NCBI RefSeq assembly: GCF_009663395.1
Contig: NZ_QKNW01000001.1
Coordinates: 1,054,001-1,118,000 of the forward strand
Direction of reading: 5' to 3'
From: Halosegnis longus
GTDB lineage: Archaea > Halobacteriota > Halobacteria > Halobacteriales > Haloarculaceae
DNA length: 64,000 nucleotides
Part shown: one piece after another, positions 51,047 through 58,953 of the stretch
Layout: each line of letters starts with the position of its first letter
How positions within the stretch are numbered: position 1 is the first letter of the stretch
Notes under the pieces: model-generated
The model's database searches: none
What the model was told of the DNA's origin: nothing
Seen by the model: only the letters and a program-made list of their open reading frames with translations
Translations under genes and position numbers: made by a program

Positions 51047-52714
51047 ATGAGTCAACAGCGAATGCAGGGCCAGCCGATGGTAATTCTCGGTGAGGACTCC
51101 CAGCGGATGAAAGACGAGGATGCGCAGGGACACAACATCTCGGCGGCACGCGCCGTCGCCGAGGCCGTGCGTTCGACCCTCGGTCCGAAGGGGATGGACA
51201 AGATGCTCGTCTCCTCGATGGGCGACGTGACCGTCACGAACGACGGCGTCACCATCCTCCAAGAGATGGACATCGACAACCCGACGGCCTCCATGATCGT
51301 CGAGGTCGCCGAGACACAGGAAGACGAGGCCGGCGACGGCACGACGACGGCCGTCGCGGTCGCGGGTGAACTCCTCAAGAACGCCGAGGACCTCCTCGAG
51401 CAGGATATCCACCCGACGGCCATCATCAAGGGGTTCCACCTCGCGAGCGAGCAGGCCCGCGAGGAAATCGGCAACCTCGCCGAGTCCGTCGACCCGACCG
51501 ACACCGAGCGGCTTCGCAAGGTCGCGGAGACCTCGATGACGGGCAAGGGCGCGGAACTCAACAAGGAGCTGCTCAGCCGGCTCATCGTCGAGGCCGTCGA
51601 GAGCGTCACCGTCGAGGCCGAGGACGGCAGCCACGTCGTCGACCTGGAGTACATCAACATCGAGACCCAGACCGGCCGTTCCGCCAGCGAGTCGGAACTC
51701 CTCAACGGCGCCGTCATCGACAAGGACCCCGTACAGGAGTCGATGCCGACGAACCTGACGGACGCGAAGGTGCTGCTCACGAACTCGCCCATCGAACTGG
51801 ACGAAACGGACGTGGACGCCGAGCTCCAGCTCGACTCCCCGGACCAGCTCCAGTCGTTCCTCGACAGCGAGGAAGAGCAGCTCCGCGCGAAGGTCGACGC
51901 CATCGCCGACACCGGCGCGGACGTGGTCTTCTGTCAGAAGGGCATCGACGACATGGCCCAACACTACCTCGCCAAGCGCGGCATCCTCGCCGTGCGCCGT
52001 GTCAAGAAGTCCGACATCGCCTTCCTGAAGGAGGTCACGGGCGCGAGCGTCGTCTCCGACATCGAGAACGCCACCGCCGACGCGCTCGGCACCGCCGACA
52101 TCTCGCGTGACGACGAGGACGAACTGTTCTACGTCGAGGGCGAGAACAGCCACGGCGTGACGCTCCTGCTTCGCGGCTCCACCGAGCACGTCGTCGACGA
52201 GCTCGAACGCGGTATCGGCGACGCGCTCGACGTGGTCGCGACGACCGTCTCCGACGGCCGCGTGCTGTCGGGCGGCGGCGCAGCGGAGGTCGAGGTCGCT
52301 TCCCGACTCCGCGACTACGCCGACTCCGTCGAGGGTCGCGAACAGCTCGCCGTCGAGGCGTTCGCCGACTCGCTCGAACTCATCCCGCGCGTGCTCGCCG
52401 ACAACTCCGGGCTCGACTCCATCGACACGCTCGTCGACCTGCGTGCGGCCCACGCAGACGGCGACGTGCACGCCGGACTCGACGTGTTCACCGGCGACGT
52501 GGTGAACACCTACGACGCCGGCGTCGTCGAGCCGGCCCACGCCAAGGAGCAGGCGATTTCGTCCGCCACCGAGGCCGCGAACCTCGTGCTCAAAATTGAC
52601 GATATCATCTCCGCCGGCGACCTCTCCACCGAGGGTGAGGAGGACGAAGGTGGTGCACCCGGCGGCATGGGTGGCGGCATGGGCGGTATGGGTGGCATGG
52701 GCGGCATGATGTAA
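51047..52714 (+). CDS. thermosome subunit (group II chaperonin)
   Basis: ATP-driven protein-folding chamber subunit (555 residues). Motifs: 'STLGPKGMDKMLVSSMGD', TVTNDGVTIL, the ATPase segment GDGTTTAVAVAGELL, 'GRVLSGGGAAEVEVASRL' and the C-terminal GGM repeat tail (GGMGGGMGGMGGMGGMM). Haloarchaea have two to three cct/ths genes; the numbering cannot be set here. The strong AT-rich promoter suggests abundant and heat-responsive expression. It ends at the left inverted-repeat arm, whose first bases CCCCACTTTTTGCAC hold a T run that may terminate it. Confidence 0.97.
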   Translation: MSQQRMQGQPMVILGEDSQRMKDEDAQGHNISAARAVAEAVRSTLGPKGMDKMLVSSMGDVTVTNDGVTILQEMDIDNPTASMIVEVAETQEDEAGDGTTTAVAVAGELLKNAEDLLEQDIHPTAIIKGFHLASEQAREEIGNLAESVDPTDTERLRKVAETSMTGKGAELNKELLSRLIVEAVESVTVEAEDGSHVVDLEYINIETQTGRSASESELLNGAVIDKDPVQESMPTNLTDAKVLLTNSPIELDETDVDAELQLDSPDQLQSFLDSEEEQLRAKVDAIADTGADVVFCQKGIDDMAQHYLAKRGILAVRRVKKSDIAFLKEVTGASVVSDIENATADALGTADISRDDEDELFYVEGENSHGVTLLLRGSTEHVVDELERGIGDALDVVATTVSDGRVLSGGGAAEVEVASRLRDYADSVEGREQLAVEAFADSLELIPRVLADNSGLDSIDTLVDLRAAHADGDVHAGLDVFTGDVVNTYDAGVVEPAHAKEQAISSATEAANLVLKIDDIISAGDLSTEGEEDEGGAPGGMGGGMGGMGGMGGMM

Positions 52715-52946
52715 CCCCACTTTTTGCACTTCCTTCGCGCGCTTGCAGCGCGCTCAGTCTCTGCTCACGGGCGCAATGCGCCCGTTCGCACGGCCTGCGG
52801 GAACTGCGTTCCCGCATCGAGGCAAAAACTGGTTGAAAATATGCGGTCGTGCTCCCGTCACGAGCCTCCCTGCGGTCGGCTCGTGGTGGTCCGCGCGCCC
52901 TACGGCTCACGCCTCCGGCGTTCGCCGCGTAGTTTCTTTCGATGCT
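52715..52946 (+). repeat. left arm of a 232-base inverted repeat
   Basis: Starts right after the thermosome stop with CCCCACTTTTTGCAC and is the inverted counterpart of 54603-54834. Positions 52758-52845 (88 bases) match the other arm exactly; the rest is about 80-85% alike. It contains several internal palindromes: GCGCGC-TTGCA-GCGCGC, GGGCGC-AAT-GCGCCC and GCGGGAAC-TGC-GTTCCCGC. Open frames in it are shadows shared by both arms. Looks like a dispersed palindromic element. Confidence 0.9.
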
Positions 52947-53009
52947 GACTGTACAGCAGCCGCGACGGCACAGCCACAGCAACGGCACAGCCACAGCGAC
53001 GACAAAATC

Positions 53010-53529
53010 CTACTCGGGAGCCTCGTACTCCTCGGCGAGCAGGCCGTATCGGAGCACGTCGATGCGCTCGCCGTCGACGAACGCCTCCTTTCGGCGGCGA
53101 CCCTCCTGCACGAACCCGACAGACTCCATCACGCCGGCCGAGGCGTCGTTCGTCGCGTACACGTCACCGGTGAGCTTCGCGACGCTCGCGGAAGGCGTGT
53201 TGTGCGAGTAGATGCAGCGCCTCGCTCGTGTAGCCGTTCCCCCAGTGTTCGGGGTCGAGATAGTAGCTGATGTTCGCAGCCCCCCACGTACCGGGGTCGT
53301 CCATCCCGACTGTGCCGATTCCTTCGCCGTCGAGACCGATGAGTAGCGTAGTGCCGTCGTCGTCGCTCGTAATCCACTCCTTTTCGTCGTGGAGGGCAAC
53401 CGGAGTCGTCATCCCGAGGTCCTGTCGGACGGCCGGCTGATTGACCAACTGCTGGATGGTCTCGGCGTCCGACTCCTCGATGACGTGGAGATCGATGCGG
53501 TCACCCTCGATGAACACGGGACCGGGCAT
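53010..53529 (-). pseudogene. GNAT acetyltransferase, frameshifted
   Basis: Two frames together make one RimJ/RimL-like N-acetyltransferase. The first (53529 down to 53164) begins MPGPVFIEGDRIDLHVIEES and includes ISYYLDPEHWGNGYTSEAL; it breaks in HAFRERREAHR. The second continues from about 53190 with KLTGDVYATNDASAGVMESV and GFVQEGRRRKEAFVDGERID to the end at 53010. A single +/-1 shift near 53180-53200 separates them; joined, the product is about 173 residues, normal for the family. TATA-like CTATATACC lies upstream. It lies inside the inverted-repeat islet. Confidence 0.8.
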
Positions 53530-53588
53530 ACCCTCGCTGGGACGCGGGCCGCAAAGAAGCTACTTCGAGTGTGGTACGCGAACGCACA

Positions 53589-53610
53589 TTTCCACCCGAA
53601 ACGGTGGCGT
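53589..53610 (+). repeat. ORB-like sequence (weaker) inside the islet
   Basis: TTCCACCCGAAACGGTGGCG matches the first 13 bases of the origin boxes perfectly, with a poorer G tract. It lies between the acetyltransferase pseudogene promoter and the DCC gene. Confidence 0.45.
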
Positions 53611-53634
53611 TTTCGGTATATAGCCGACCCCTGT

Positions 53635-54015
53635 TCAGTTGCGACGAACGGGAGTCTCCTGTCGGGCGAACTTCCCCCAGAGCGCGCGGCGGTCGGCCGC
53701 CTCGCGGTACAGCCGTTCGCGCAGGCGGTTGTAGTCGCTGAACTGCCGGAGGAAGTCGAGCGTCTCGTCGGATTTCGGCGGCGCGAGGTCGCTCCGCTCG
53801 AACGCCTGCTCGATGGCCTCGCCGAAGGAGTACACCTGCTCGTCGGTGATGAGGTGTGCCCCCTCGCGCCAGTCGTCGGGCAGCCGCTCACGCTGCTCGT
53901 CGTCGAGGTCGGAAAAGCCGATGACGGCGAGCTCGGAGTGGTCGATGAGCCGCTGTGCACACCACGTGCAGAAACCGCACTCGTCGTCGTACACGAACGT
54001 CGCTGACTCCGTCAT
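53635..54015 (-). CDS. DCC family thiol-disulfide oxidoreductase-like protein (DUF393)
   Basis: 126 residues. N-terminal strand and active-site pair: TFVYDDECGFCTWC with C13 and C16 (plus C19), the YDxxCxxC signature of the DCC family, a thioredoxin-like fold. The family's reaction is not established; a thiol-disulfide exchange role is inferred. It lies on the minus strand between the acetyltransferase pseudogene and the cupin gene, inside the islet. Confidence 0.85.
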   Translation of the reverse strand: MTESATFVYDDECGFCTWCAQRLIDHSELAVIGFSDLDDEQRERLPDDWREGAHLITDEQVYSFGEAIEQAFERSDLAPPKSDETLDFLRQFSDYNRLRERLYREAADRRALWGKFARQETPVRRN

Positions 54016-54056
54016 GAGTCGAAATACGCGGGCGATAGCCTTCCGTGTTTCCCGAC

Positions 54057-54530
54057 TCAGTCCCAGTACTCGACGGCGTCGCCGCGCTGATAAAACCCCG
54101 ACACCGGCCGCTCGCCGTCGCCCCCGGGCGGCGAACCGGCCATCACACCCAGTCCGTTTACCTCGGGATAGATGAGCACGTCCGGCTCGTGCATCGTCGA
54201 GATAGCAAGATACCGCAGCGGTTCGTCACCGTCGTTCACGATTTGGTGTGCGCCCGAGGCGTCGGCCGGACAGGCGACGTACTCCCCCGGTTCGAGCGCC
54301 ACGTCCTCGCGCTCCTCGCCGCGCCGGAGCGTCCCCTCGCCGGCGAGCACGTAGAACGCCTCCTCGTTTCCGGTGTGGTAGTGCAGCGGCCACGGTCGGT
54401 CGCCGGGGTCGAGTTCGTACAGCGAGCAGCCGAGGTCCTCACCGTCGCTCGCTGCGGCCAGTTTCTTCCGGCGAAACGCCGTCTCCTCGCCCTCGTGGTC
54501 GGTCCACTCGATATCGGCTTCGTTGACCAT
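54057..54530 (-). CDS. cupin-domain protein
   Basis: 157 residues with one cupin barrel. Metal ligands: H50 and H52 (LHYHTGNEEAFYVLAGEG) with E56/E57, and H95 (SGAHQIVND) in the second motif. A further C-terminal segment (MHEPDVLIYPEVNGLGVM) is found in haloarchaeal cupins of this sort. Substrate unknown; the fold is used by dioxygenases, isomerases and sugar-binding proteins. First gene of the three-gene islet if read as a minus-strand unit. Confidence 0.85.
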   Translation of the reverse strand: MVNEADIEWTDHEGEETAFRRKKLAAASDGEDLGCSLYELDPGDRPWPLHYHTGNEEAFYVLAGEGTLRRGEEREDVALEPGEYVACPADASGAHQIVNDGDEPLRYLAISTMHEPDVLIYPEVNGLGVMAGSPPGGDGERPVSGFYQRGDAVEYWD

Positions 54531-54602
54531 ACGGGAGAGAATGACACACAGTTACTAAATTATCGCGAGCGGTCGTGGTGGCTGTGCTGTCACTGTGCGG
54601 GG

Positions 54603-54834
54603 AGCGTCGAACGAAACTGTGCGGCGAACGCCGGAGCCGGGAGCCGTAGGGCGCGCGGACCACCACGAGCCGACCGCAGGGAGGCTCGTGACGGGAGCAC
54701 GCCCGCGCATATTTTCAACCAGTTTTTGCCTCGATGCGGGAACGCAGTTCCCGCAGGCCGTGCGAACGGGCGCATTGCGCCCGTGAGCAGAGAGCGAGCA
54801 GCCGGAGGCTGCGAGTGATGTGCAAAAAGTGGGG
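54603..54834 (-). repeat. right arm of the 232-base inverted repeat
   Basis: On the minus strand it begins immediately after the polC stop with CCCCACTTTTTGCAC, as the left arm does after the thermosome stop. 54706-54793 is identical to 52758-52845 in inverted orientation. It carries the same internal hairpins apart from the first, which is replaced by GCAGCCTCCGGCTGC. Confidence 0.9.
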
Positions 54835-57800
54835 TCACATGAAGTCGCTGATGCTTCCCTGCTTGTTCTTGTCGTTCTCGAAGATGGACTCCAGTGAGCG
54901 TTCGAGAATCTTCAGCCGCTGTTTGGTGTACTCACGGCAGCCGAACTCCTCGGCCACGCGGATTGCCACGTCCATGTACTTGTTGACGGAGCCTTCGTGT
55001 ACCGTGAGATTCACGCGCCCACCACACTCCCGGCAGTCGCCGGTCAGGGGCATCCGGCGGTACTTCTCGCCGCAGTCGAGACACCGCGTCTCCTGCCGGC
55101 TGAACGCGCGCAGATTCCCGATGAGATCCGGCAGGAAGTGGTACTCGATGACCCGTTCGGCCACGTCCGTCTCGTCGACAGCGCGGAGCTTCCGCGCCAG
55201 TTCGAGTTGCGCGTCCATCTTGTCCATCATGCTCCCGAGAGTCTTGTACGCCGAGAGGTCGGGGCCGAGCGCGATATCCGTCGTGTCGTGGGTGTGGTCG
55301 AAGCCGCTGTACTCGTCGGGCGTACCGAGGGTGTCCTCCGCAATCTGGATATCCACGTCGCCGGGGTCGGCCTGCTCGCGCGTCGCCTCGTAGAACTCCC
55401 GCGGATACCGGTCCACGATGTCCATGTTGTGCGCCTCGTCGTCGATTTCCGAGGGGTCGATGCGCGAGGACATCACCAGCGGCGCGTCCATCTGGCCGCC
55501 CCGCTGGTCGGGCAGATACTCCTTCGAGAAGTTCAGAAGACCGTCCATCAGGAGCATCACACAATCTTCGTCGCCGTCACACTGCGCGACGTACGTATCG
55601 TTCGCGACGAGCGTATGCGTGTCTGCAACCGTGAGGCAGTAGGTGTAGTCGGTGTCACTCTGAACGATTTCGACAGACGAGACGGTATCTGTCACGACAC
55701 CACCATCAGCGACGGCAGTTCGGGAGGCTTCCGTGTAGTTACCTGATTGGTGTGTCGGAACAGCGAGAGTATCGCCGGCAGTAACCGTGCTTGCCTCGAT
55801 TTTTTCCATGGCTCCATTCCACCGGCAGAGACGGTGGTCAGGAGTAACGGTCAGCGTTCGTCCCCCCTCGGTTTCGACACGAATCATGTGGTCGGGAGCC
55901 GGGTGTTTCGAGACAGCCTCAACCGGCTTCAGCGTCTCAGTTTCGTTATCGGTCACAGACGGAACGAACACGTCACCGTCGAGTTCCTGAACGAGCGTCC
56001 CGAAATCGTCCTCGCGGGCGGTCGCGGGGTCGAGCCGAGATTCGACGAACTCGTCGATACGACCGTGGTGCCACTCGTCACTCTCGTCACGGTACCACAG
56101 CTTCGTCTCGGGGTGGAAGCAGTTGCGGCGCTTCGCGGCGTGGAAGTACGGATGCGCGTAGCCGACGGCCGCGGAGGTGAAGCCGATGACGCGGCCGACG
56201 ACGGCCGCCGAGGTGTGGGGAGCCATCCCGAAGACGAGTTCGCCGACGAGCTCCTCGCGGTCGTCGAGTTCGTAGAAGGCGTCCAGCCCGTAGTAGCGTT
56301 CGAGCAGGTCGTCGACGTAGTCGGCGGTGCGGAGCATGTGTTCGGCTGCACCGTCGGGGAGGACGATATCCTGCACCTGTAGCTCGACGAGTTGGTCGTC
56401 GTGGCGCAGCGGCTCGCCGTCGATGTCAGTCTCGTACCCCAGCTCCCGCAGCTGGTCGACGGTCACGTCGAGTTCCGCCGCCCGGACCGAGGTGACGGGG
56501 AGGTCGGTCATGTCGTAGCGGACGGTGCCGTCCTTGAACGACGACACGTCGTTTTTCGCGCGGAGAATCCCCTTTTCGAGCGGCTCGGGTATCTTGTGCG
56601 TCGAGGTGAGTCCCTTCACGCCTTTGAGGATATCGTAGGAGCCGGCGCGTTCACCGACCGCCTCGTGAGCGTCACGGAGTTCCTCGTTCAAATCGAGGTT
56701 GCGGTACTCGGTGGAGCGGGCGAGCGTCTCACACCGGGGACACTCGGCGCGGCCCGACTCGTCCGGCTCCACGTCGCGCTCACAGTCGGGACAGACGTAG
56801 TGTGGCTCCGTCCACGAGCCGCAGTCGCGACAGCGACCGCGGAAGGTGTCGTTGTCGCAGTCCGGACACCGGCGGCGCGCGACCTCCACGTCGACCTCGC
56901 CGGGGGAGGCGGCCGACACGTCGCGCTGTTTGGCCGCGCCGGTCACGTCGCGCTGGCTTCCCCCCGCCTCGCCGATGGGGAAGAGGGTGTGGACGGCCGG
57001 CGACATCTCGCGCTGTTCGGACTTCTCGGGGCGACCCATTCGGTTGCCGATGCGGGTGGGCGCTCGCTCTTGGAGGTCGAAGGGCGCGACCTCGGTCGCG
57101 GCGCGGTGGGCGTTCTCGCCGTCGGCCCACTCGCGCGCCTCGCGCGAGAGCGTTTCCCACGTCCGGTCGAGGTCGTCGGTCAGCCCGAGCGAGCGGACGA
57201 ACGGGAGGGCGTCGGGAACGGAGACGGTCTCGTCGCCCTGCGTGTGCTCGACGACGAGCGTCTCGAGCGCGTCGGTGACCGCCTCGGTGTTCGGAAGGAC
57301 GAGCGTCTGTGTGGCCGACGGCTCGGTCGGGGCTTCGAGCAGGCCGCCGTCGGCCTCGGCGAAGCGACCCGACTCCGCGACCGTCGCCGCCAGCGACTCG
57401 AACGCCTCGACGGAGAGGTCGTGCCAGAGGTAGGTGTAGGTCGGATGGAGCGGGGCGTCGAACTCGTCGGCCCACGCGAGCGCCTGCTCGGCGTCGGGGG
57501 AATCGAGGTCGACGGCGGGGTCGTCGGCGAGCGCCTGCACGTCCGCGCCCGCGGCCGCGAGGTCCTGTTGCCACCACTCGGCGACGTAGGAGGCCGGCAC
57601 GAGCGGGTGATTGTTCTCCACGAACTCGCCGTAGTTGACGAGATACTCCCCCAGGTCGAGAATCTCGACGACGCCGTTGCGAACCTCCTTCGCCTCCGCC
57701 GGGTCGTCGATGCGGCGCACGTCGCCGTTGGCGAGTTTGACCGTCGGCCCCTCGATGGAGTCGACGGGAATGACACCGCCCGCCTTCCCCGGGCGTTCGG

Positions 57801-58953
57801 TCTTGATCTGTGTGCCGGTCGCGAGGAAGTCGTCGACGATGTGCATCGTCGCGGGGTGGACGCCGGCGGTCGCGAAGCCGTGATTTCTGGCGCGACCGTA
57901 GCGGAGTCGAAACCCGCCGCTCTCAGAGGGGTGACTGAACACCGGCCGCCCGGCGATGAGGTCACGCAGGAACTTCTGTGACGGCTCCGCGCGGGGAGGT
58001 CCGACTGGCTCGGGCTGGCCGTCACCGGCTTCGGCGTCCGATTGTCCGTCGTCGGTCTCGGTCTTGGTCTCGGCGTCGTCCCCGTCGGTTTCGTCTGGAC
58101 TCGCCTCGTCCGTGTCCTCGTAGTAGGTGCCGTCGATGAGGTCCTGCAGCCACGGCCAGTCGATTTCGTCGAGCTGGCGGGTGTAGCGTTGAATCTTCGG
58201 GGCCTTGAGCGCGATTCCCTCGGCGAGCACGAGACACATCCCGCCGCGGGCGGAGTTGGTGTCGACGCGTTCGAGGTCGCGAAAGCCAGAGACCTCCTCG
58301 TCGCCCGTCGGCTCCCCGTCCAACATCACGGGCATGTGCTTGGCGATGAACTTCGTCTCCTTGTCCTTCGGCGTGTACTGGAGCCCGGTCTCCTTGTCGT
58401 AGAGGGCGATTTCCTCGGCGTAGCGTTCCGTCTCGTCGGTGCGGGCGTTGTACTCCTCGATGCCAAGCAGCGCGCGGGCGTAGTCGCCAACGAGGACGGA
58501 CAGCGCCTGTGCCGTCCCGCCCGCGGACCGAATCGGGCCGGCGTAGTAGATGTTGATGAACTCCGTGCCGTCGTCGTTTTCCAGCAGTTCGACCCGGTCG
58601 ATACCCTCGATCGGGGCCGCGACGACACCTTCGGTGAGGAGCGCGACGGCGGTTCGGACCGCCCCTTCCACTTTCCCGGCGCGGGAGTCGTAGTCGCCGA
58701 CCGTCCCCTCGACGAAGTCCGTCACGAGTTCGAGGGCGGCCTCCTCGCGTGACATCTCGCCTTCGAGTTCGCGCACCCGTTCCGCGACCCCCTCGATACC
58801 AAGGATGTTCTCGACGCGGTCGGCCATATCCTTCGCGACCGGAATCTCCACCTCGGGCTTCGGGTCCTCGCCGCGCGTCTTGGCCTCCTCGGCCACGTCG
58901 AAGGCGGCATCGAGCTGTCGTTCGAGCTGTGCGAAGTACGCCTCGTCGTCCAT
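54835..58953 (-). CDS. polC: DNA polymerase II (PolD) large subunit DP2, with intein
   Basis: Catalytic subunit of the archaeal D-family replicative polymerase. 1372 residues as encoded, 1192 after removal of a 180-residue intein. The intein interrupts the most conserved active-site segment: RRN before it, CDGDEDCVMLLMDGLLNFS after it, which holds the catalytic Asp residues. Zinc-binding pairs include CPDCDNDTFRGRCRDCG, CPDCERDVEP and CLDCGEKYRRMPLTGDCREC. N-terminus MDDEAYFAQLERQLDAAF; C-terminus ends SISDFM, a PIP-like tail before which lies an acidic-basic stretch. It directly abuts the upstream PPC-domain gene, so the two are cotranscribed. The small subunit is not in the window. Confidence 0.97.
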   Translation of the reverse strand: MDDEAYFAQLERQLDAAFDVAEEAKTRGEDPKPEVEIPVAKDMADRVENILGIEGVAERVRELEGEMSREEAALELVTDFVEGTVGDYDSRAGKVEGAVRTAVALLTEGVVAAPIEGIDRVELLENDDGTEFINIYYAGPIRSAGGTAQALSVLVGDYARALLGIEEYNARTDETERYAEEIALYDKETGLQYTPKDKETKFIAKHMPVMLDGEPTGDEEVSGFRDLERVDTNSARGGMCLVLAEGIALKAPKIQRYTRQLDEIDWPWLQDLIDGTYYEDTDEASPDETDGDDAETKTETDDGQSDAEAGDGQPEPVGPPRAEPSQKFLRDLIAGRPVFSHPSESGGFRLRYGRARNHGFATAGVHPATMHIVDDFLATGTQIKTERPGKAGGVIPVDSIEGPTVKLANGDVRRIDDPAEAKEVRNGVVEILDLGEYLVNYGEFVENNHPLVPASYVAEWWQQDLAAAGADVQALADDPAVDLDSPDAEQALAWADEFDAPLHPTYTYLWHDLSVEAFESLAATVAESGRFAEADGGLLEAPTEPSATQTLVLPNTEAVTDALETLVVEHTQGDETVSVPDALPFVRSLGLTDDLDRTWETLSREAREWADGENAHRAATEVAPFDLQERAPTRIGNRMGRPEKSEQREMSPAVHTLFPIGEAGGSQRDVTGAAKQRDVSAASPGEVDVEVARRRCPDCDNDTFRGRCRDCGSWTEPHYVCPDCERDVEPDESGRAECPRCETLARSTEYRNLDLNEELRDAHEAVGERAGSYDILKGVKGLTSTHKIPEPLEKGILRAKNDVSSFKDGTVRYDMTDLPVTSVRAAELDVTVDQLRELGYETDIDGEPLRHDDQLVELQVQDIVLPDGAAEHMLRTADYVDDLLERYYGLDAFYELDDREELVGELVFGMAPHTSAAVVGRVIGFTSAAVGYAHPYFHAAKRRNCFHPETKLWYRDESDEWHHGRIDEFVESRLDPATAREDDFGTLVQELDGDVFVPSVTDNETETLKPVEAVSKHPAPDHMIRVETEGGRTLTVTPDHRLCRWNGAMEKIEASTVTAGDTLAVPTHQSGNYTEASRTAVADGGVVTDTVSSVEIVQSDTDYTYCLTVADTHTLVANDTYVAQCDGDEDCVMLLMDGLLNFSKEYLPDQRGGQMDAPLVMSSRIDPSEIDDEAHNMDIVDRYPREFYEATREQADPGDVDIQIAEDTLGTPDEYSGFDHTHDTTDIALGPDLSAYKTLGSMMDKMDAQLELARKLRAVDETDVAERVIEYHFLPDLIGNLRAFSRQETRCLDCGEKYRRMPLTGDCRECGGRVNLTVHEGSVNKYMDVAIRVAEEFGCREYTKQRLKILERSLESIFENDKNKQGSISDFM
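55582..56121 (-). other. PolC mini-intein (180 residues) ending in glutamine
   Basis: Starts CFHPETKLWYRDESDEW, has block B LTVTPDHRLCRW (TxxH) and ends NDTYVAQ before extein Cys. Too short for a homing endonuclease domain and none is visible. The last residue is Gln and the penultimate is Ala, instead of the usual His-Asn; Gln-ending PolII inteins are known from Pyrococcus and do splice. The insertion site is the known pol-II position. Confidence 0.93.

Follow-up and report, generated by a model that had tools for sequence, protein, structure and literature searches.

The window analysed here comprises 64,000 nucleotides of Halosegnis longus (contig NZ_QKNW01000001.1, positions 1,054,001 to 1,118,000). 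Between the converging genes for the thermosome and polC it contains an islet of three minus-strand genes, coding for a GNAT acetyltransferase, a DCC1-like thiol-disulfide oxidoreductase and a cupin, which is enclosed by two inverted arms at 52715-~52960 and ~54590-54834 (Table 1). Aligned from both stop codons, the arms are 87% identical over ~270 nt. Their longest exact inverted match, of 88 nt (52758-52845/54706-54793), which had already been described in an earlier note on this DNA, is accompanied by a second exact block of 61 nt (52848-52908/54641-54701), with a small indel and a mismatch separating the two. As had also been noted, the arms start at the stop codons of the thermosome and polC genes, both with CCCCACTTTTTGCAC. 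This motif has two sites in the window and no others at up to two mismatches, and 0.02 are expected from shuffling, so that the likeness of the arms is not due to chance. The arms had further been said to be full of small palindromes; indeed, several were folded in each, and their folding as DNA agrees with the reading as DNA palindromes given below.

Table 1 Features of the two arms, the enclosed islet and the adjacent genes in the window.
Feature	Position	Strand	Remark
Thermosome (Cpn60_TCP1) gene	51047..52714	+	TAA stop at 52712-52714; left copy at 3' end
Left element copy (left arm)	52715..52945	+	sense to thermosome; directly after stop
Start motif CCCCACTTTTTGCAC, left arm	52715..52729	+	T5 at 52721-52725, 6 nt past stop; left half of outer helix P1
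Homogenised tract	52758..52908	+	88 + 61 identical bases interrupted by one small indel; common to 54641-54793
Optional module B, left arm	52762..52790	+	TGC-TC-ACGG[hairpin]CCGT-TC-GCA
Module C hairpin, left arm	52796..52816	+	TGCGGGAACTGCGTTCCCGCA
Conserved motif GCAAAAACTGGTTGAAAATATGC, left arm	52822..52844	+	right half of P1; its two A-runs read as T-runs on the opposite strand
Hairpin D, left arm	52859..52885	+	CACGAGCC...GGCTCGTG, within CTCC...GTC internal loop; swapped as a unit in G002
GNAT acetyltransferase gene (PF13302)	53010..53529	-	frameshifted; first 121 codons open
DCC1-like thiol-disulfide oxidoreductase gene (PF04134)	53635..54015	-	intact
Cupin gene (PF07883)	54057..54530	-	intact
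Right element copy (right arm)	54604..54834	-	sense to polC; directly after stop
Hairpin D, right arm	54664..54690	-	
Conserved motif GCAAAAACTGGTTGAAAATATGC, right arm	54707..54729	-	
Module C hairpin, right arm	54735..54755	-	
Module B, right arm	54761..54789	-	identical to left
Start motif, right arm	54820..54834	-	6 nt from stop codon to T5
polC (DP2, with intein)	54835..58953	-	TGA stop at 54835-54837; right copy at 3' end

The islet had been called decaying, which fits one of its three genes: compared with the sister genome G002, GNAT has lost 5 nt and is broken, whereas it reads through in G002 and in the related genome G003, while the DCC1-like and cupin genes are 98% and 94% identical to those of G002. 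The polC-cupin order is also present in G013. In G003 (L046 4300-4520), the cupin beside polC is apparently reduced to its last codons, with a different cupin-like gene next to it, and the right-arm region is gone together with this cupin. The polC region of G002 (L063 5418-6388) is longer by about 970 nt at the place of the intein, which makes a larger intein there and a mini-intein in the polC of the window seem likely.

The earlier note had also proposed that the segment could invert by recombination between the arms, and homologous inversion is physically possible, as the arms are long and near-identical. However, gene order and orientation of the islet are the same in H. longus, G002 and G003, no recombinase is encoded among the islet genes, and G002 has one arm only. 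An invertible cassette, in which arm recombination flips the islet as a switch, is therefore very improbable.

Relatives of the arms in haloarchaea

A search with an arm in its own genome and in other haloarchaea, in line with the check suggested in the earlier note, revealed relatives throughout the order, so that the arms are not unique to this locus. In the own genome, arm-length matches were limited to the two arms, plus two short matches (L003 and L004); matches to an arm were found in 43 of 97 related genomes. These relatives match separate pieces of the arm, with query 1-49 in many cases running straight into query 110 onwards, and query 50-109 standing alone elsewhere. The 20 relative places that were read all have a single architecture. 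It begins after a stop codon or a tRNA end with CCAC or similar, followed by TTTTT (T5), hairpin A and the optional modules B and C; then comes AAAAA-xTGG-xxAAAA, in which the block after the first A-run (A5) pairs to the bases before T5 and which includes a second A-run, and finally additional hairpins (D and E), which linkers such as GTGAACCG connect. Both arms represent copies of this modular haloarchaeal multi-hairpin DNA element.

The module B pattern was present in 70 of 146 genomes of the order, with a maximum of 29 copies in one genome and one hit in the reversed control. It was absent from all of the ~124 non-haloarchaeal genomes in a draw of 148 from the phylum, in which all 9 positive genomes were haloarchaea. 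Likewise, 36 of 195 genomes had the A-run pattern AAAAACKTGGGNGAAAA, the richest of them with 22 exact copies, and the control gave no hits. The hallmarks of the element thus span many haloarchaeal genera, and their per-genome maximum is 22-29. For the 20-nt module C pattern, the matches listed among genome contigs (11) were all chance matches outside the haloarchaea. A regular expression free of pairing requirements had 12 hits in 400 kb of G024, some of which represent one element counted on both strands; they correspond to about 10 distinct elements, versus one in the reversed control. No further copies came up with this expression in 400 kb sampled from the own genome, which is thus poor in elements. 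Its short matches L003 (T5 near 1436) and L004 (T5 near 1415) are members with another type of P1, GCACC-TTTTT ... AAAAA-TCTGC, and share the hairpin D sequence GCCGAGCCTCCCTGCGGTCGGCTCGG, which is partly common to the arms as well. Copies within a genome do not form near-identical families.

Several further occurrences were observed. Tandem arrays of 2-3 element copies with units of 148-182 nt are present in L299, L300, L301 and L302, and in at least some of these the unit seems to take in the final codons of the convergent gene on the other strand. Near-identical inverted pairs of the element, with 2.8-2.9 kb between the copies, lie in two other families of the order (L297 2117-2188/4955-5026 and L298 1656-1740/4636-4720), and 19 viral contigs (L151-L169) match the module B pattern.

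In Rfam, the arms matched only a CRISPR repeat, far below threshold, and 16 relatives matched only tRNAs, with no element family at gathering score. No description of the element was found in the open-access papers searched; most subscription journals were outside this search, so that "undescribed" is provisional.

Placement at gene ends and pairing of the stems

In 36 of 50 collected copies, T5 is located 1-10 nt past the stop of an in-frame ORF of at least 100 aa on the same strand. A stricter ORF test was passed by 28 of the 50 copies versus 41 of 4000 random positions. Five further copies follow a tRNA 3' end (two of these tRNAs by Rfam, the others by sequence). Some of the 50 copies are orthologous and hence not all independent; the placement at gene ends is nevertheless an independent result, since the regular expressions required a T-run but no stop codon. 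A T-stretch shortly past the stop codon is also the feature of archaeal T-tract terminators. For Haloferax volcanii, termination of 95% of the transcripts at a T5C tract has been shown in a reporter; T-stretches mark intergenic ends, and hairpins are located upstream of some termination sites (PMC7237163). The element resembles these terminators in that its T5 comes right behind the gene and is followed by G/A/C; unlike them, it has its hairpin array downstream of T5, which is itself paired to A5 in a helix.

Concerning the downstream neighbours, 26 are convergent and 18 co-oriented, with a background of about 42-51%. This weak convergent bias is near background and no clear excess, and a specifically two-way terminator is thus not supported. 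The presence of the element at the ends of thermosome and polC genes is patchy between genera.

The outer helix P1, formed by the bases before T5 and those after A5, occurs in versions such as CCAC/GTGG, GCAC/GTGC, CGA/TCG, GTA/TAC and CTAAA/TTTAG, and it covaries. Among 42 distinct copies, 39 cells were changed on both sides, compared to 16.4 +/- 2.7 after shuffling (0/500), and a single cell was changed on one side only. The covariation score was 0.170 versus 0.060 for shuffled copies, and the duplex energy of P1 with its own partner was better than with swapped partners in 200/200 shuffles. The pairing of T5 with A5 itself is no evidence, because it was built into the sample.

The strong covariation of P1, together with the conservation of the unpaired linkers and the sense orientation, could indicate a structured 3'-UTR or small RNA conserved by compensatory changes. 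In an RNA that evolves under pairing, however, one would look for wobble steps and a strand preference. Here, single strands of either sense have folds far below those of shuffled sequences, and in 47 of 49 copies the antisense strand equals or slightly outdoes the sense strand, which is thus not preferred. G-T pairs are scarce to the same degree on the two strands (160/3088 and 152/3158), and wobble intermediates are almost missing, given a ratio of two-sided to one-sided changes of 39 to 1. In addition, the T5 terminator lies before the structure, and Rfam gave no match at gathering score save the tRNAs. Hence, we consider a selected RNA to be improbable. The two-sided changes and the equal folding of both strands instead point to DNA palindromes, which appear to be rewritten on both sides at once.

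Turnover and history of the arms

Stems are exchanged between species: at three pairs of loci (L007/L085, L018/L141 and L053/L058), stems including P1 were replaced while the element was kept at the same gene end, and stems are also replaced at the polC ends of three congeners (L185/L186/L187). The thermosome end, at which homologous copies are present after the same gene in G002, G003 and G005, provides a further example, since H. longus and G003 have hairpin D in common and the closer sister G002 has another. As the left arm is present in H. longus, G002 and, without modules B and C, in G003, it is, judging from this comparison, old.

The two arms were homogenised recently. The cores of the left arms of H. 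longus and G002 differ at 4 of ~92 sites, with 88.7% identity of the thermosome third codon positions, while the left and right arms of H. longus differ at 0 of 88. From this we conclude that the homogenisation took place after the split from the sister, which supports the suggestion of the earlier note that one 3' flank was copied onto the other. The right arm moreover contains sequence of the thermosome flank, TTCGTTCGACGCT, beyond the hairpins, so that the donor was probably the left flank. Near-identical inverted element pairs 2.8-2.9 kb apart are also found in G116 and, after a protein gene and a tRNA, in G122, which indicates that local homogenisation of inverted copies recurs.

The origin of the right arm can be approached from the matching polC position in G002, which lacks the body of the right arm and contains only CCCCACTTTTTGC joined to GCTAACTGCACAGC. 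This flank can be read as an unfilled site or as the ends of an arm that has lost its core. In G013, polC lies beside the cupin without the element, which favours a later gain. For the arms only, it is a realistic possibility, although somewhat short of an even chance, that the entire thermosome 3' flank was copied once, and recently, into the polC-cupin gap via short homologies, giving the right arm with no ancestral right copy; the short G002 flank, the G013 arrangement and TTCGTTCGACGCT all fit this course. Against it, the identical core combined with a differing hairpin A and differing outer ends is what a conversion tract within older copies would produce, and the residue in G002 resembles both arm ends, as a core deletion would leave it.

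The other proposal of the earlier note, that a palindromic element had inserted twice, holds as far as the element is present in two copies and has relatives throughout the order, mostly at gene ends. A simple double insertion with target duplication is not supported: the right flank of G002 contains no duplicated target and the H. longus genome no Y1 transposase. The ends of P1 are inverted repeats, but this missing duplication does not fit an IS-derived MITE, although the comparison rests on one site, at which G002 possibly represents a core deletion.

Relation to known systems and interpretation

The nearest described systems are the PATEs and SMRs of Haloquadratum (PMC3119063) and the bacterial REPs (PMC3733652). 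With the PATEs, MITEs and SMRs the element shares that it is a transposase-free haloarchaeal palindromic repeat without target duplication, that core-deleted forms exist and that elements are nested in palindromes. PATEs are defined by near-terminal palindromes common to IS605-type transposons (PMC3119063). The element differs by its position at gene ends and, going by description, seems distinct from PATEs and SMRs; the Y1 loci surveyed, from four genomes, did not contain its hallmarks. Bacterial REPs and BIMEs (GTAG/CGTC REPs; PMC3733652) resemble the element in being scattered extragenic palindromes whose complementary stems vary and which form dimers and complex arrays. The element, however, is a far larger and ordered multi-hairpin unit at a fixed place a few nt past stops, with few G-T pairs and without a linked RAYT. 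Bacterial intrinsic and clustered-hairpin terminators also place hairpins just past stop codons (PMC8355165). The bacterial intrinsic terminator, however, has its GC hairpin right before the T-tract, whereas the T-tract of the element precedes all hairpins on the sense strand.

These similarities raise the question whether the element could be a selfish palindrome of the REP or MITE type that integrates beside T-tract terminators, with the arms as two insertions. The many dispersed copies, their patchy presence at the same gene across genera, modules that seem to be inserted into one another, tandem duplicates in some genomes and the precedent of the transposase-free Haloquadratum repeats (PMC3119063) all fit such an element. 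On the other hand, apart from the missing target duplication against G002, the copies within a genome are too dissimilar for near-identical families, the outer helix takes in the bases between stop codon and T5, and a sensitive plasmid search with one element returned a single record, a partial Natrinema match. No Y1_Tnp was found in H. longus or in the copy-rich genomes G050 and G029, despite 18 and 16 A-run copies in the latter two, and none of 12 Y1 loci in other genomes had element hallmarks nearby. A RAYT-driven REP origin is unlikely on these grounds, and the selfish reading as a whole is rather doubtful, though the origin may be selfish by means other than a Y1 transposase.

We therefore favour, with modest confidence, that the arms are copies of modular multi-hairpin DNA elements that mark the 3' ends of haloarchaeal genes, each a terminator-anchored boundary whose hairpins are turned over. 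By analogy to Haloferax, the upstream gene's mRNA would end at T5, and the A-runs may act as T-tract terminators for the opposite strand, so that the element would form a boundary between transcription units. If the transcript does end at T5, termination would not require the hairpins; these may act, or be tolerated, as DNA palindromes, i.e. as cruciforms or single-stranded DNA hairpins, and not as RNA. The stems could stay perfect through template switching in hairpins and ectopic gene conversion between copies, both of which would rewrite the two sides. The inverted pair of the window may have been homogenised by conversion after the polC copy had been seeded from the thermosome flank, or alternatively by conversion between two older copies, one of which would have lost its core in G002. 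The patchy presence at a given gene between genera, which also fits a selfish element, speaks against the boundary reading.

A more far-reaching version of the boundary reading is possible, though we advance it only tentatively: the elements might represent an undescribed, order-wide class of gene boundaries, in which a DNA cruciform array anchored on a T5 terminator is maintained at the ends of genes and tRNAs because its DNA shape is under selection, while template switching and conversion rewrite both sides of its stems; a nucleoid protein or a junction-binding protein might recognise it.

If this is right, haloarchaea hold a large and so far unnoticed family of structured gene-end elements, in which palindromes could be watched while they are rewritten on both sides at once. 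Annotators would then stop calling such arms one-off inverted repeats or broken genes, and the family would offer a natural system for the effect of hairpins past a T-tract on archaeal termination, read-through and supercoiling.
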